Shown here: positions 21,450 through 37,284 of the stretch, one piece after another
How the letters are laid out: the number at the start of each line of letters is the position of its first letter
Position numbering within the stretch: position 1 is the stretch's first letter
Assembly: GCA_016934735.1 (NCBI GenBank)
Contig: JAFGSG010000082.1
Coordinates: 1-37,881, forward strand
Direction of reading: 5' to 3'
Source: Spirochaetota bacterium
GTDB taxonomy: Bacteria > Spirochaetota > UBA4802 > JAFGDQ01
DNA: 37,881 nt
Translations under genes and position numbers: made by a program
Notes under the pieces: model-generated
Told to the model about the DNA's origin: nothing
Database searches by the model: none
Seen by the model: the letters and a program-made list of their open reading frames with translations, nothing else

Positions 21450-22391
21450 GTGAAAGGTTTAGAACTCAGCCGAAAATATTTCTTCGATACAGGCGCTCCG
21501 ATGATAGCGGATAAATTCCCACAATACCGCGAGCATATAGCCGCAGGCCTTGTGGGAGACGGCTCAGAATGCTTCGGCTTTGACGATGATCTTTCCATGG
21601 ATCATGACTGGGGGCCTGCATTCTGTCTGTGGCTAACAGTACAAGACTACAAAGCCATTGGCCTTTCTCTGCAGAATGAAATAAATAAACTCTCCGGAGA
21701 ATATGCAGGTATTACGCGGCAGACGAGCAGCTGGGGAAAAGGAAGAACAGGCGTTTTTGAAACGGGACGGTTTTACGAACGGTTTATCGGTTTTAATCAT
21801 GTTCCCGAAACAATGGAAGAGTGGCGGATAATCCCAGAGGAAAATCTCGCCGCAGCAACAAACGGAATGATATTCACTGATCCGCCCGGCGAATTTACAG
21901 CTTTCAGAAACAAACTGAAAGAATATTATCCGGAAGATATCAGATTAAAAAAGATAGCTTCGCGATGCATGGCCATAGCCCAGTCAGGGCAGTATAATTA
22001 TACGCGCTGCATAAAGCGCAGGGAATTTGTGGCTGCCCATTATGCTGAAGCACAATTTTTCAACAGCGCTATTTCCATGATTTTTCTGCTTAATAAGCGA
22101 TACAAGCCTTTTTATAAATGGATGCATAGATCATTGAAAGAGCTTTTAGTCCTGGGCAGCCTATTGTATCCGCTTTTTTCGGACATTGCCATACCTTCAC
22201 CCGATTTATCTGAATCATTATATAAGAAAAAAAGCCGGCTTATAGAAGAGATATGCGGGCATATTATACAGGAACTTAAAAGACAAAATCTCAGCGATTC
22301 AGGCAGCGATTTTCTTTTAGACCATGGCCCGGCTGTACAGAGTAAAATAAGAGAGAGCAGCATACGGAACCTTGATGTCTGGATAGATTAG
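21450..22391 (+). CDS. DUF4037 protein, nucleotidyltransferase-like N-terminus
   Basis: A 313-residue cytoplasmic protein of the DUF4037 type. Residues 32-60 carry the hallmark GLVGDGSECFGFDDDLS followed by DHDWGP; the Gly-Ser and spaced acidic residues recall a nucleotidyltransferase active site, which is my inference. Later RCIKRREFVAAHYAEAQFF and a Lys/Arg-rich helical C-terminus complete the domain. Starts at GTG 21450; a purine-rich AGGAAAG lies further upstream than usual. It sits between TPR and DUF4125 genes with gaps of 31 and 11 bases. Domain call firm, activity unknown. Confidence 0.82.
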   Translation: MKGLELSRKYFFDTGAPMIADKFPQYREHIAAGLVGDGSECFGFDDDLSMDHDWGPAFCLWLTVQDYKAIGLSLQNEINKLSGEYAGITRQTSSWGKGRTGVFETGRFYERFIGFNHVPETMEEWRIIPEENLAAATNGMIFTDPPGEFTAFRNKLKEYYPEDIRLKKIASRCMAIAQSGQYNYTRCIKRREFVAAHYAEAQFFNSAISMIFLLNKRYKPFYKWMHRSLKELLVLGSLLYPLFSDIAIPSPDLSESLYKKKSRLIEEICGHIIQELKRQNLSDSGSDFLLDHGPAVQSKIRESSIRNLDVWID

Positions 22392-22402
22392 ACTGGTTTA
22401 TT

Positions 22403-23029
22403 ATGATGACAAAAGAAGAATTAGTAAAAAAAATTTCTGATATGGAATGGAAGATGTTCCAGGATGTTCCCAATATCGGGGGGAAAGCTGCATGTCAGGA
22501 GGATAAGCGTACGTTCGAAATAATGCGGCAGAGCCAGTCAACATCATGGTCAATGGAAATGCTTGAAAGCTATCTTGACGATCTCACTCTTGCCGAACAG
22601 AACGGGAAGAACCTGCTCACGGAAAAATACGCCCGTATGATGGAATCGACCTCGCCAGCCGAATTTGCTCGCATCAGGCACACGCTTCCTCCATTGAGCC
22701 CAGCAGCAGCAACCCTGATCGATGATATCATGAAGATTATACTGCAATGGGAGGACGAGCTTCTTAAAAAATATCCTCATATACTGGGAACGGGAAGGCC
22801 GATCCACAGATCCGGAGATACACCTTTTGAAACTTCTCTCGAAACATATCTCAGGAGCGAACTGGCGACCTATTCGCTTAAAACGCTTGAGAGATATTAT
22901 GAAAATATTCTAAGGCAAAATTCGGAAGGCGATAACGCAGCAGCCGTTACTCTTGAATATACAGTAAAACAATACGGTTATAAATCACTGGAAGAAGCAG
23001 AAGCGGTTCTTAGGAATAGGGTTAAATGA
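22403..23029 (+). CDS. DUF4125 family protein
   Basis: A 208-residue, mostly helical protein with the DUF4125 pattern: EWKMFQDVPNIGGKAACQED, TFEIMRQSQSTSW, NLLTEKYARMMESTSP, and PHILGTGRPIHRSGD. No signal peptide or membrane segment. Start ATG 22403 or the adjacent ATG 22406; only 11 bases separate it from the DUF4037 gene, indicating co-translation. DUF4125 and DUF4037 are conserved, uncharacterised families; being adjacent implies a joint function, perhaps small-molecule or protein modification with the TPR protein as adaptor (inference). Confidence 0.82.
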   Translation: MMTKEELVKKISDMEWKMFQDVPNIGGKAACQEDKRTFEIMRQSQSTSWSMEMLESYLDDLTLAEQNGKNLLTEKYARMMESTSPAEFARIRHTLPPLSPAAATLIDDIMKIILQWEDELLKKYPHILGTGRPIHRSGDTPFETSLETYLRSELATYSLKTLERYYENILRQNSEGDNAAAVTLEYTVKQYGYKSLEEAEAVLRNRVK

Positions 23030-33024: not shown

Positions 33025-34002
33025 TTATGCAAACAGATGCCCGATCATTCTGTTAAGCATATGCCCGCCTTTTACTTCTGTCTCGAGGAGCGGGATGGTT
33101 GCGCGCACATTGTCCTTGAATATGTCCCATATCTCTGCCATATGTTCGTCCTGCATTTCCACCCTGTGACGCACAAATTCGGCAGCATCCTTACCCACCT
33201 GTTCCTTCTGAATGATACCATTCACGATTACACCTCCTACGGGAATGCCGAATTCGACGAACCAGTTGATGAAGCGCGTAATAACAGCGATAGGCAGGCT
33301 TTCAGGAAGAGTCACGAAGAAAAACGATGTCAGATCCTTATTCGTTAGCAAAGACTGTGCACGTGCCATCCTGTCCTTGAAGTTCAGCAGATAATCCATA
33401 AGAGGATCAGCCTGTTGTTTTTTCGAGAAAGAAAGCAGTTCGCGAAGGGACTTTGCCTCTTCCCTGCTTTTCAGCATTTTATCCACCCAAAGAGAATAGA
33501 CCTTTGACATGCCGAGAAGCCTTCTCGCGTTCGCGGTAGGTGCAGTGTCGAACACATAGAAATCGTATTCATCCTTAAACATAATGTCCGTCATGTTCTC
33601 AAACATTGCGGATTCCTCGAATGCTGGATTCATTGTGGCAGATTCCACAAACTCGTCCGCCTTTGTTGTAAGATCAGCGAACTTAAGGAACCAGTTTATC
33701 TTTTCGCGTATATCCTGCTTCGAACGCTCAATAGTATCCTTTGTGTCTATTTCGAAAGCATGGCAGAGTTTTTCATCACACACAACAGCAACTTTACCGA
33801 ATACATCACATTCAAGAAGATTCGACAGGCTATGGACAGGATTAGTGGACGCAAGCAGAGTTTTCCTGCCCTGCTTGGCAGCCCACAGCGCAGCAGTGCC
33901 TGCCATCACAGTTTTGCCGACCCCGCCCTTGCCGCCGAAGAATATATATTTTAACTTCGGATGTTCTTTCATGTACTGAGTCATACCTGTTGTAATACTC
34001 AT
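33025..34002 (-). CDS. ArsA/Get3-like ATPase B, with catalytic Asp replaced by Asn
   Basis: A 325-residue single-domain ATPase of the ArsA/Get3 (SIMIBI, MinD-related) family. The deviant P-loop is intact at residues 23-31 (GGKGGVGKT). The switch I motif, normally STDPAHSLSD, reads STNPVHSLSN: the Asp equivalent to yeast Get3 Asp57 is Asn54, the same change as the known ATPase-dead Get3 D57N. Switch II, normally DTAPTGHTLR, reads DTAPTANARRLL. No CxxC zinc motif or arsenite cysteine triad is evident. It follows ATPase A, with a 150-base gap holding a large inverted repeat. I infer it binds nucleotide but hydrolyses poorly alone, working as a heterodimer with ATPase A. AAAGGAG precedes ATG 34002. 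Not an arsenite pump component by context. Confidence 0.85.
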   Translation of the reverse strand: MSITTGMTQYMKEHPKLKYIFFGGKGGVGKTVMAGTAALWAAKQGRKTLLASTNPVHSLSNLLECDVFGKVAVVCDEKLCHAFEIDTKDTIERSKQDIREKINWFLKFADLTTKADEFVESATMNPAFEESAMFENMTDIMFKDEYDFYVFDTAPTANARRLLGMSKVYSLWVDKMLKSREEAKSLRELLSFSKKQQADPLMDYLLNFKDRMARAQSLLTNKDLTSFFFVTLPESLPIAVITRFINWFVEFGIPVGGVIVNGIIQKEQVGKDAAEFVRHRVEMQDEHMAEIWDIFKDNVRATIPLLETEVKGGHMLNRMIGHLFA

Positions 34003-34042
34003 ATCAAGACTCCTTTAAAAATATTATCATCCCCCAGGTTGG

Positions 34043-34132
34043 CGGTTAAAACTATCAGTAATTTTTGAGGACTGTCCGAGTCATCCAAGTTATTGTTCGA
34101 GTTCCGCAGAAAATTACTGATAGTTTTAACCG
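34043..34132. repeat. 90-bp inverted repeat between the two ArsA-like genes
   Basis: The 23-base arms at 34043-34065 and 34110-34132 are perfectly complementary (CGGTTAAAACTATC at the outer end of the left arm), separated by 44 bases that contain smaller inverted motifs (TCCGAG, TTCGAG). It fills most of the gap between ATPase A and B, so the polycistronic RNA would fold into a long stem. It may be a MITE-like insertion or an element that sets the expression ratio of the two subunits. The sequence does not match the other two repeat families here. Confidence 0.75.
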
Positions 34133-34152
34133 GCCACTACTATGTAATACCT

Positions 34153-35136
34153 TTAAGCAAACATTACATTTGCGAGTTTTTCAATCATCTGAAGGCCTGT
34201 TACATCCCGTTCCATCTCGGGAACCCACGCATGGATATCCTTGAAGGTATCATTAATTACCTTTACATAATGCTCCTGCATGGAAATACGGTTCTTCAGA
34301 TATTCCGGGATATTCTGGTTCTTCAGTTCCTCCGGAAGCACCCTGTTTACTATATAGCCGCTCAGGGGAACGTCGAATTTCGCGAATAGTTCACCAGCCT
34401 TGACCGTATCGTTGATTATCATTTCTTCCGGTGTGATCACAAAAAAGAAAGCAGTCTTCTTTTTATCTGTTAGTATCCCGGATGACTTATTAATGCGGTC
34501 TTTGATGTAAAGAAGCTCATTCAGAATCGCATCCTCGTCCAGTTCCTTATCGCGCTTAATGACAGCAGCGACCTGATCGTACTCGCGCATCTGCTGTCGC
34601 AGATTGGTTATCTTGTCTATCCATGCGTCGTAGACAGAAGCCATGCTGAGATAATACAATGCATGCCCCAGAGGCACAAGATCGTAGATGTAGTAATCAA
34701 ATCCGCCTTTTACAACAATATCTACCACCTCGTCGAAGATGGCGCTTTCTTCCATAGCTGGCTCCGCAGCTGCAGCCTGAATATAGCTCTCGATCTCTTC
34801 AGGTATCTTATCCAGGCCGTACATGTCGAGTATCTTCTTGCGTATCTCAGCCTGATACTCCTTAACGCGGCGGTCTGCATCGATCTCCTGTGCATAAAGA
34901 TTCGGCATTATTTCAGTAGGCCCCTTGCCGAAGATGTCCCTTTTAAAAATATCGCTTAATGATGCCTGCGGATCAACGGAAAAAACCAGAACTCTCTTAC
35001 CCTGCTTAGCCAGATAATAGGCAGCAGCAGCTGAAAACGTTGTTTTGCCCAGACCGCCTTTTCCTCCGAACATGATATAACGGCGATCCGGATACTGTTC
35101 AAATATTTTTGTCAGTGAAATAGGAACCACCTCCAT
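34153..35136 (-). CDS. ArsA/Get3-like ATPase A, with altered switch II
   Basis: A 327-residue paralogue of the downstream ATPase B. The P-loop is at residues 24-33 (GGKGGLGKTT). Switch I keeps the catalytic-type Asp (SVDPQASLSD, Asp55) but lost the following His. Switch II, normally DTAPTGH, is degenerate: YDLVPLGHALYYLS. It shares with B the region MEESAIFDEVVDI and the segment DAWIDKI after switch II. Because A retains the Asp that B lacks, the pair looks like a heterodimer with complementary sites. The GGAGGTGG sequence falls just inside the ATG at 35136, and a TATAAT ends two bases before it, so the exact start is uncertain. The small protein at 35207 is encoded 70 bases upstream in the same direction. 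Confidence 0.85.
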   Translation of the reverse strand: MEVVPISLTKIFEQYPDRRYIMFGGKGGLGKTTFSAAAAYYLAKQGKRVLVFSVDPQASLSDIFKRDIFGKGPTEIMPNLYAQEIDADRRVKEYQAEIRKKILDMYGLDKIPEEIESYIQAAAAEPAMEESAIFDEVVDIVVKGGFDYYIYDLVPLGHALYYLSMASVYDAWIDKITNLRQQMREYDQVAAVIKRDKELDEDAILNELLYIKDRINKSSGILTDKKKTAFFFVITPEEMIINDTVKAGELFAKFDVPLSGYIVNRVLPEELKNQNIPEYLKNRISMQEHYVKVINDTFKDIHAWVPEMERDVTGLQMIEKLANVMFA

Positions 35137-35206: not shown

Positions 35207-35509
35207 TTACGCTAACGCGTCTGTTAAATCTTTCTCTCTTAGCATCCTGCGCTTCCACGTAGAAATCTGAGGAACAACATAAGGTAAAAGCCTCAATGAA
35301 TAATATGGAGGAAGGATGGGAACGCCCAGCATGTCTCCCATGGTGATCAGAATAAAAAGGTGTTCCATGCTTGCACGCGATTTAAGCGCGAAACGCGCCG
35401 AATCGTGCGCCGCTACTCCGTATACAAATTGTTTTACGGCATTTAAAAATCCGCCTTTCTTTTTTTCTTCCGGCTTTACATCTTCCGGGTTATTTTCTTT
35501 TTCTGACAT
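35207..35509 (-). CDS. small membrane-associated protein encoded with the ArsA-like pair
   Basis: A 100-residue protein of unrecognised family. The N-terminal 20 residues are charged and Lys/Glu/Pro-rich (NNPEDVKPEEKKKGG), followed by AVKQFVYGVAAHDSARFALK. The central to C-terminal part is hydrophobic, with MEHLFILITMGDMLGVPILP and YYSLRLLPYVVPQI, which may form one or two membrane segments, then a basic tail (WKRRMLREKDL). CAGGAG precedes ATG 35509. Its position ahead of two Get3-like ATPases suggests a partner or client in the membrane (inference). Confidence 0.7.
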   Translation of the reverse strand: MSEKENNPEDVKPEEKKKGGFLNAVKQFVYGVAAHDSARFALKSRASMEHLFILITMGDMLGVPILPPYYSLRLLPYVVPQISTWKRRMLREKDLTDALA

Positions 35510-35610: not shown

Positions 35611-37284
35611 TTACGCACTTTTCTTCTTCAAAGCTTTATATCTTTTGAATGCCTTTATACCTTCAACAGCCAGTATAATTGCAGCAACAACCAGATATAT
35701 GCCCACAAGGCCCATCAGAATATTTCCGACCAGCGCCTCACCTGAGACTGCCCCGGAAAAAACTTTTTCAAGCAGATTATAGGAAGTAAATGCCAGAGCC
35801 GCGATAGTTGTAATGAACATGAATATCATGGGGTAAAACGACCATGCATATGATTTTCCTTCGAACATCAGCCATGCTGTAATAAGCATTAAAGCCAGAG
35901 ACGCCATAAGCTGATTTGCTCCCCCGAAAAGGATCCACAGGTATTGCCACCATCCGGTTAGAACAAGGATAATGCCGAGAATGCTGGCTATCAAGGTGCC
36001 TATATGCGCATTTTTAAAAACAGCGCTCACATTTCCAAGCAATTCAGATGTCGCGATTCTCATGAAGCGGATAACAAGCTGCATTATTGTTATTGCCAGA
36101 ACTATCATCATAACGCTTCCATAAGATCTTCCAATATCAGCCGGCAATCCAAGCGCACCTAAAAAATTTGAGACGCCTGCGGCGAACATAGCGGCAGGCC
36201 CTTTTACTATTGCTTCACCGTATTCAGACGATGACGCAAAAATAGTACCTGCAATTATGAGTGCGAATAAAGCAAGCATCATCTCAACGAACATAACGCC
36301 TGCTCCGACCGGGCGGGCATCAAGTTCACTCTCAAGCTGTCTTGCGGTTCCCGAACTTGATACAATGCTGTGCCATCCCGATATAGCCCCGCATGCTATA
36401 GTGACAAACATAATGGGCCATAACGGTCCGATTTTAATATTAAAACCGGTGAATGCCGGAAGAGTAAAATTAGGATGAAGTACAAAAATTCCGATTATTC
36501 CGAAAAGCAGGCCTAAAAATACAATATAGGACGCAACATAGTTAATCGGCAGGGCAAAACGCCATATAGGCAGAACTGCAGCAAAATAGCAGAATACAAA
36601 CGCTATGATAGCCCACAGAATCCTGCTGTTGGACAGTCCCTCCCCGAGTATTGCATCCGAAGGGGCTATGGTGCCGACATAAATTCCCAGAAGGGCAATA
36701 ACTACCGTAACAACGGTTGTAAGTATTATATCCCTTTTCCATTTATAGATCATCTGGCCGGCAAGAATTCCGGCGATCGTCAAAAAAAGCCATGCCATGG
36801 GTGCTGCTTTTAAAGAAATGGCGGTACTAACTACAACATTGCCGAACGCGCCTGCAATTAAAAGCAGATAGAAGTAAATGAATGACAGAAGAATGACCCT
36901 TGCCCTTGGTGAGACCAGTTTATGGCTGAGGCCCCCGAATGATGCACCGTCATTGCGCATCGCAACCATCATGCTCGAATAGTCCTGGACCCAGCCTATG
37001 AAAAAAGTGCCTGCCAGAATCCATATCAGCGCAGGCAGCCATCCCCATTGAATCGCGACAATAGGCCCGATGATCGGGGCAGCACCGGCGATTGATTTAA
37101 ACTGATAGCCGAACAGAATGTTCTTGTTTGTCGGCATAAATTCAACACCATCCATATACATCTTTGCAGGTGTTGCGCGTTTTGCATCTGCCTTGATTAC
37201 TTTAGAATCAATATATTTGGCATAAACACGATAACCAAGGAAGGCGACAATGAAACCTAAAATGAGAACAACAATAGAATTCAT
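35611..37284 (-). CDS. cstA: CstA family carbon-starvation transporter
   Basis: A 557-residue polytopic protein with about sixteen membrane segments. Family landmarks are NKNILFGYQFKSIAGAAPIIGP near residue 55, IQWGWLPALIWILAGTFFIG, VQDYSSMMVAMRNDGASFGG, and GAISGWHSIVSSSGTARQLE mid-protein. CstA/BtsT proteins import peptides or pyruvate; the length fits the shorter bacterial type rather than the ~700-residue E. coli form. ATG 37284 has AAGGGGG upstream. A perfect 13-base palindrome (ACAATACTATTGT, 37327-37339) lies in its leader and may be an operator. The MITE-like element at 37456 lies further upstream. Confidence 0.93.
   Translation of the reverse strand: MNSIVVLILGFIVAFLGYRVYAKYIDSKVIKADAKRATPAKMYMDGVEFMPTNKNILFGYQFKSIAGAAPIIGPIVAIQWGWLPALIWILAGTFFIGWVQDYSSMMVAMRNDGASFGGLSHKLVSPRARVILLSFIYFYLLLIAGAFGNVVVSTAISLKAAPMAWLFLTIAGILAGQMIYKWKRDIILTTVVTVVIALLGIYVGTIAPSDAILGEGLSNSRILWAIIAFVFCYFAAVLPIWRFALPINYVASYIVFLGLLFGIIGIFVLHPNFTLPAFTGFNIKIGPLWPIMFVTIACGAISGWHSIVSSSGTARQLESELDARPVGAGVMFVEMMLALFALIIAGTIFASSSEYGEAIVKGPAAMFAAGVSNFLGALGLPADIGRSYGSVMMIVLAITIMQLVIRFMRIATSELLGNVSAVFKNAHIGTLIASILGIILVLTGWWQYLWILFGGANQLMASLALMLITAWLMFEGKSYAWSFYPMIFMFITTIAALAFTSYNLLEKVFSGAVSGEALVGNILMGLVGIYLVVAAIILAVEGIKAFKRYKALKKKSA

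Follow-up and report, generated by a model that had tools for sequence, protein, structure and literature searches.

Get3 is a symmetric homodimer that carries the switch I aspartate in both subunits; in archaea and yeast it also binds zinc through CxxC motifs where the two subunits meet. Its two nucleotide sites lie at that dimer interface too, each being completed by the signature lysine of the partner subunit, and in laboratory work the D57N mutant has been used as a trap to dissect the cycle. Yeast Get3 cannot hydrolyse ATP without Asp57, and the D57N form keeps the nucleotide trapped (PMC12506534).

Single-domain ArsA homologues encoded next to the CstA transporter were described by Castillo and Saier in 2010, who reported cstA-cstX-arsA operons (clusters 14-18) and proposed an ATP-energised CstA and ArsA homodimers (PMC2963123). 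The same study listed two organisms in which two arsA genes lie side by side (31% and 25% identity) and noted that the D of the SXD motif can be N (PMC2963123). The Asn was not tied there to one member of a pair, a division of Asp and Asn between the members was not reported, and the study contained no experiments. In E. coli, CstA functions with no ArsA-like ATPase, and the small E. coli protein YbdD has a Cys-Cys tail. E. coli needs YbdD, an adjacently encoded and essential partner, for CstA-dependent pyruvate uptake (PMC5847655). We found no experimental follow-up of the 2010 ArsA-CstA association, and no further papers on CstX, in the literature searched.

BagA and BagB of mycobacteria (Rv3679 and Rv3680; PDB 6bs3-6bs5) are adjacent Get3-like paralogues that differ in their active-site motifs. 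As judged from sequence motifs and PDB entry listings, BagA keeps GKGG and reads VEVE in switch I (no Asp), BagB keeps TIDP and has lost the signature Lys (GAGG/GSGG), and chains of both occur in the same PDB entries. By the logic of a lysine that acts in trans, this pair may hold one composite live site. In the actinobacterial BagA/BagB loci (L237-L242), BagA is without the switch I Asp and BagB without the signature Lys.

The DNA analyzed here, hereafter the window, is a stretch of 37,881 nt from a Spirochaetota bacterium (GCA_016934735.1, contig JAFGSG010000082.1, positions 1 to 37,881). Its minus strand carries, in this order, cstA, cstX and the genes for two ATPases, A and B, with A and B distal and with gaps of 101, 70 and 150 nt. 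The first gene (35611..37284, minus strand) encodes a 557-aa membrane transporter of the CstA (pyruvate/peptide) family (Pfam PF02554, E 7e-141) and is the sole CstA match found in this genome. It is followed by the 100-aa cstX (35207..35509, minus strand), of the type that we call X1, by ATPase A (34153..35136, minus strand, 327 aa), the putative hydrolytic subunit, and by ATPase B (33025..34002, minus strand, 325 aa), putatively hydrolysis-dead and ATP-holding. The features that define the clusters of Castillo and Saier, an adjacent cstA, a cstX of about 90 aa and a single-domain arsA, are present in the window and in related loci. Elsewhere in the window (21450-23029), adjoining DUF4037 and DUF4125 genes, to which their domains assign no function, are preceded by a gene for a TPR protein.

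Both ATPases belong to the Get3/ArsA family. A and B score 237 and 213 bits against PF02374 (ArsA_ATPase; E 3e-70 and 8e-63, cut-off 24 bits) and 231 and 203 bits against TIGR00345 (GET3_arsA_TRC40; cut-off 135), and are 32% identical to each other. Their best solved relatives are archaeal (3ug6/3zq6) and eukaryotic Get3, client-bound forms included. When B was modelled with AlphaFold2 (pLDDT 86, pTM 0.83), the best PDB folds were archaeal Get3 3zq6 and 3ug6. With Get3/TRC40 (3zq6, 3ug6, yeast) the pair shares the fold and the deviant P-loop, but it consists of two diverged subunits, without CxxC, encoded in a bacterial CstA operon. BagA and BagB are distant from A and B: PDB matches have E values of ~1e-5 to 1e-7, and A and B reach 39-52 bits against the BagA/BagB models (NF053622, NF053621), whose cut-offs are 400 and 521 (43-52 against 400 for the BagA model). 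The mycobacterial pair also shows another combination of losses, and no CstA/CstX link was seen for it; it is an independent case of paired Get3-like ATPases.

Codon reading of the active sites bore out most of the motif changes named in the original prediction, which had been made from the window's letters. The deviant P-loop GKGGxGK with its signature lysine is kept, as claimed, in both paralogues: A reads GGKGGLGKTT (35038..35067, minus strand; Lys26) and B reads GGKGGVGKTV (33907..33936, minus strand; Lys25). In switch I, A retains Asp55 (GAT, 34972..34974, minus strand), the equivalent of yeast Get3 Asp57, whereas B has Asn54 (AAT, 33841..33843, minus strand) in place of the catalytic aspartate. 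Both residues align with the aspartate of STDPAHSL in archaeal Get3 3zq6/3ug6, so that B departs from the canonical Get3 pattern of an Asp in both subunits just where the prediction had placed the change. The CxxC motif of the Get3 zinc site is found in neither A nor B, and A is free of cysteine altogether. The switch II of B, said to have lost its Gly-His, indeed reads DTAPTANARRLL from residue 152 (33514..33549, minus strand), with Ala-Asn instead. That of A, which had been called degraded, is altered from the family norm DTAPTGHTLRLL to DLVPLGHALYYL (from residue 152; 34648..34683, minus strand), but nearly every one of its positions is letter-for-letter invariant in the main clade (81 sequences), which argues for a specialised motif and not for decay. 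The switch II of B is nearly invariant as well (78 sequences), and the second Thr of its P-loop is replaced, mostly by Val (68/79).

In order to see how far the Asp/Asn division extends, we combined the best 80 loci from one genome-collection scan with phylum-wide samples, which gave 97 distinct pairs from many phyla; the archaeal pairs named by Castillo and Saier are not part of this sample. The switch I residue is Asp in A and Asn in B at all 97 loci, the count for B including one sequence read by eye as LLASTNPVHRLSS; such regularity goes far beyond chance. The Asp55/Asn54 pairing is therefore conserved in orthologous gene pairs, as opposed to all homologues being canonical, and the asymmetry does not consist of local mutations. 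The signature Lys is likewise present in 97/97 A and 97/97 B proteins. The two genes are always adjacent, on one strand and with A first (median gap 37 nt), and mean identity across the 97 pairs is ~73%. The distance matrices of A and B correlate with r = 0.95, as expected for jointly inherited neighbours. Even a deep branch (L161-L164), in which B is only 46% identical, has the same Asp/Asn division; its switch II reads DMPPFGHGVRMV (DMPPFGHGV) in A and DTAAVANAVRLI (DTAAVANAV) in B. Recent pseudogenisation of B was also considered and is ruled out by the invariance across phyla.

Related ATPases outside the pair served as controls. Most members of a group of single-copy ATPases adjoin CstX, CstA or both in Bacillota, Actinomycetota and the phylum to which the window belongs; this group has the switch I Asp in 27/27 members and usually a canonical switch II. 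Among adjacent or fused pairs without a link to CstX, and further single ATPases, 26/26 domains carry Asp. This makes the Asn specific to B and the asymmetry proper to the pair, and its absence from the 27 single-copy relatives matches what a split of labour between two subunits would predict. A tree from which the switch I and II columns were omitted (quick search, SH-aLRT support only) places A and B as sister clades (99 each) within one clade (98) and calls for a single switch from Asp to Asn, located where the B clade begins. This topology points to one duplication with the asymmetry fixed alongside it. Read from these sequences, the pair arose by one ancient duplication, after which A kept the Asp and B has carried the Asn ever since.

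We identify the 100-aa gene as the cstX of Castillo and Saier by its size and position. Its product scores 36 bits (E 4e-9) against the cory-CC-star model NF041419, below the curated cut-off of 80, and is without the Cys-Cys C-terminus of that family; it is best described as cory-CC-star kin without the CC tail. A CstX homologue from a single-ATPase locus clears the same cut-off at 111 bits. None of 94 pair-linked CstX proteins ends in Cys-Cys, an ending found in most of those beside single canonical ATPases (Bacillota, Actinomycetota). The AlphaFold2 model of CstX (pLDDT 73, pTM 0.43) predicts helices at 20-60 and 68-91, the second with a hydrophobic tip, around a conserved Pro-rich turn (PILPP), and a fold search with this model of modest confidence gave no PDB match. 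By hydropathy, the most hydrophobic stretch (~48-66) lies near the C-terminus and is borderline as a membrane span.

Homology of CstX to YbdD/YjiX was considered and is ruled out, since the hhalign probability is 0.6% and CstX has no match to PF04328, the family of YbdD. A CC tail common to YbdD and to single-ATPase-linked CstX, two unrelated small CstA partners, would be unexplained. Some genomes hold a second type of CstX, X2, which is ~34-56% identical and often ends in EFDLHGV. It adjoins X1 at many loci, L070, L080-L084, L087, L221, L222, L231 and L232 among them, which suggests that CstX itself has duplicated and diverged. X2 is also present in some genomes of the Desulfobacterota sample in which A and B are absent.

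The association of A and B with X1 is close to one-to-one. CstX lies directly upstream of A in 79 of the 80 best loci, the exception beginning at a contig end, and was seen in 94 of the 97. One sample of 297 genomes has 31 with a B-type gene and 31 with X1, and 30 genomes hold both (Fisher p ~8e-39). The one genome with B and no X1 (G1051) and the one with X1 and no B (G979) both have these genes at contig ends, with a fragment of A adjoining each. Of 19 genomes checked for CstA, 18 have it. The remaining one (G059, locus L061, a Desulfobacterales chromosome record) has X, A and B and no CstA match, so that either the trio has another partner there or the assembly is without CstA. The putative link of A and B to CstA is purely one of neighbourhood. 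A small Cys-Pro-His-Cys protein (L072:4725-5204; cluster c4, 12 loci) is often encoded near CstA; it appears thioredoxin-like by eye and has no Pfam match.

Because A and B always occur with a CstX-type small protein and nearly always with CstA, they are probably parts of one lopsided machine on CstA. We think it reasonably likely that they form an obligate heterodimer of the Get3/ArsA type, docked on CstX, whose single-hydrolysis open/close cycle controls, energises or helps assemble CstA. Such a heterodimer would hold two ATPs and hydrolyse only the one in the site of A, which would be completed by Lys25 of B from across the interface. The site of B would only hold ATP, as a structural or regulatory site, and CstX would be the small helical-hairpin protein at the membrane on which A:B docks. 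The conservation of Lys25 in all 97 B proteins, whose own site would be dead, makes sense if this residue serves the site of A. Docking on CstX and action on CstA are suggested by operon logic and by the E. coli precedent of a small CstA partner (PMC5847655). Since no homology between YbdD and CstX could be detected, this parallel is a functional one only, and the fact that CstA of E. coli needs no such ATPase speaks against the model. The switch II of A is itself non-canonical, so A might hydrolyse ATP poorly. A wider version, which we put forward tentatively, is that CstX-A-B is a self-contained GET/ArsA-like machine that performs one hydrolysis per cycle, with one live subunit and one that never releases its ATP by hydrolysis, and makes the secondary carboxylate/peptide transporter CstA ATP-controlled or ATP-assembled.

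The main rival to the docked heterodimer is GET-like delivery of CstX, in which the A/B chaperone would shield the hydrophobic hairpin of CstX and bring it to the membrane to join CstA, CstX being a client. The near one-to-one co-occurrence of X1 with A/B would suit this arrangement, as would the client-bound Get3 structures among the best solved relatives and the single hydrophobic stretch of CstX, near its C-terminus between two predicted helices. Monotopic hairpin proteins, yeast Erg1 for example, are within the reach of GET (PMC9123286), and CstX, with its hairpin close to the tail, would be of a similar kind. However, the C-terminal 57 residues of X1 are near-identical across phyla, as would be expected more of a stoichiometric subunit than of a client, and six genomes of the 297 carry X2 paralogues without A/B. 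With the zinc-binding CxxC of Get3 missing from both ATPases and the hydropathy of CstX borderline for a membrane span, we regard GET-like delivery as rather unlikely.

It is possible, if distinctly improbable, that A and B form separate homodimers with different roles, A as a slow ATPase and B as a nucleotide-binding regulator, which share partners and never combine. Get3 itself is homodimeric, and homodimers were what Castillo and Saier proposed for the single-domain CstA-linked ArsA proteins (PMC2963123). Against such independence, A never occurs without B, nor B without A, except at contig ends, and their evolutionary distances match. The lysine that acts in trans has survived in every B beside an Asn site, where it would be most useful for completing the site of A, and for another pair, BagA/BagB, the solved structures 6bs3-6bs5 contain both proteins. 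Finally, an arsenite pump from a degenerate ars operon, to which membership of PF02374 and TIGR00345 might point, is hardly credible: A and B are single-domain proteins and not two fused domains, they score 95-101 bits against the ArsA equivalog TIGR04291 (cut-off 650), they have no CxxC, A has no cysteine at all, and their neighbours are CstA/CstX in dozens of loci. A Pfam scan of the larger ORFs in the window gave no ArsB, ArsC, ArsD or ArsR family member, which agrees with the original prediction both on the absence of arsB, arsC, arsD and arsR and on a role other than arsenite export.

The genes for A and B and their two neighbours look, from sequence comparison, like a horizontally acquired cassette that has moved between phyla together. 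Neither A nor B was found in 58 relatives, and a sample of 296 genomes from the phylum gave no other intact adjacent A/B pair. The one resemblance there is in G021, a genome of the window's order, where adjoining broken pieces of A and B (172 and 72 aa; L230 8534-9245) look like a copy of the pair in decay. A, B and CstX of the window are 89-98% identical to those of Syntrophorhabdus and CstA is ~80% identical; the GC content of the cassette is 44% versus 41%. A permease gene of the same contig (28140-29381), in contrast, is 58-59% identical to homologues in its own order and family and ~29% to that of Syntrophorhabdus, so that the contig appears native and the cassette foreign. Taken together, the Syntrophorhabdus-like genes, their absence from relatives and the native neighbour indicate that the four genes were probably acquired as a unit. 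Assembly misbinning, considered since the 58 relatives are without the pair, is ruled out by the native permease gene.

The core idea of the original prediction is strengthened by these results, with the CstX/CstA context and the prior literature added; the CstX/CstA genes immediately upstream, the tight co-occurrence with CstX, the horizontal acquisition and that literature had all been missed. The gene neighbourhood, the single-domain ArsA homologues, the adjacent pairs and the D-to-N change were already present in the clusters of Castillo and Saier. What is added here is an invariant, apparently live/dead division, its single origin in one ancient duplication, the controls, and an almost strict tie to a single CstX subtype. 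No paper reporting such an invariant division was found in the literature searched, and the fixed one-active, one-dead architecture in the CstA-linked clade appears to be new.

The equivalent of the D57N trap has apparently been fixed by nature in one subunit, once, and kept across many phyla. The pair is a ready-made system in which to ask whether one hydrolysis per dimer can drive a cycle of the Get3 type, and what role falls to the ATP that is not hydrolysed. For the ArsA-CstA association of 2010 it offers a concrete, testable role, and it suggests ATP control of some bacterial CstA transporters.
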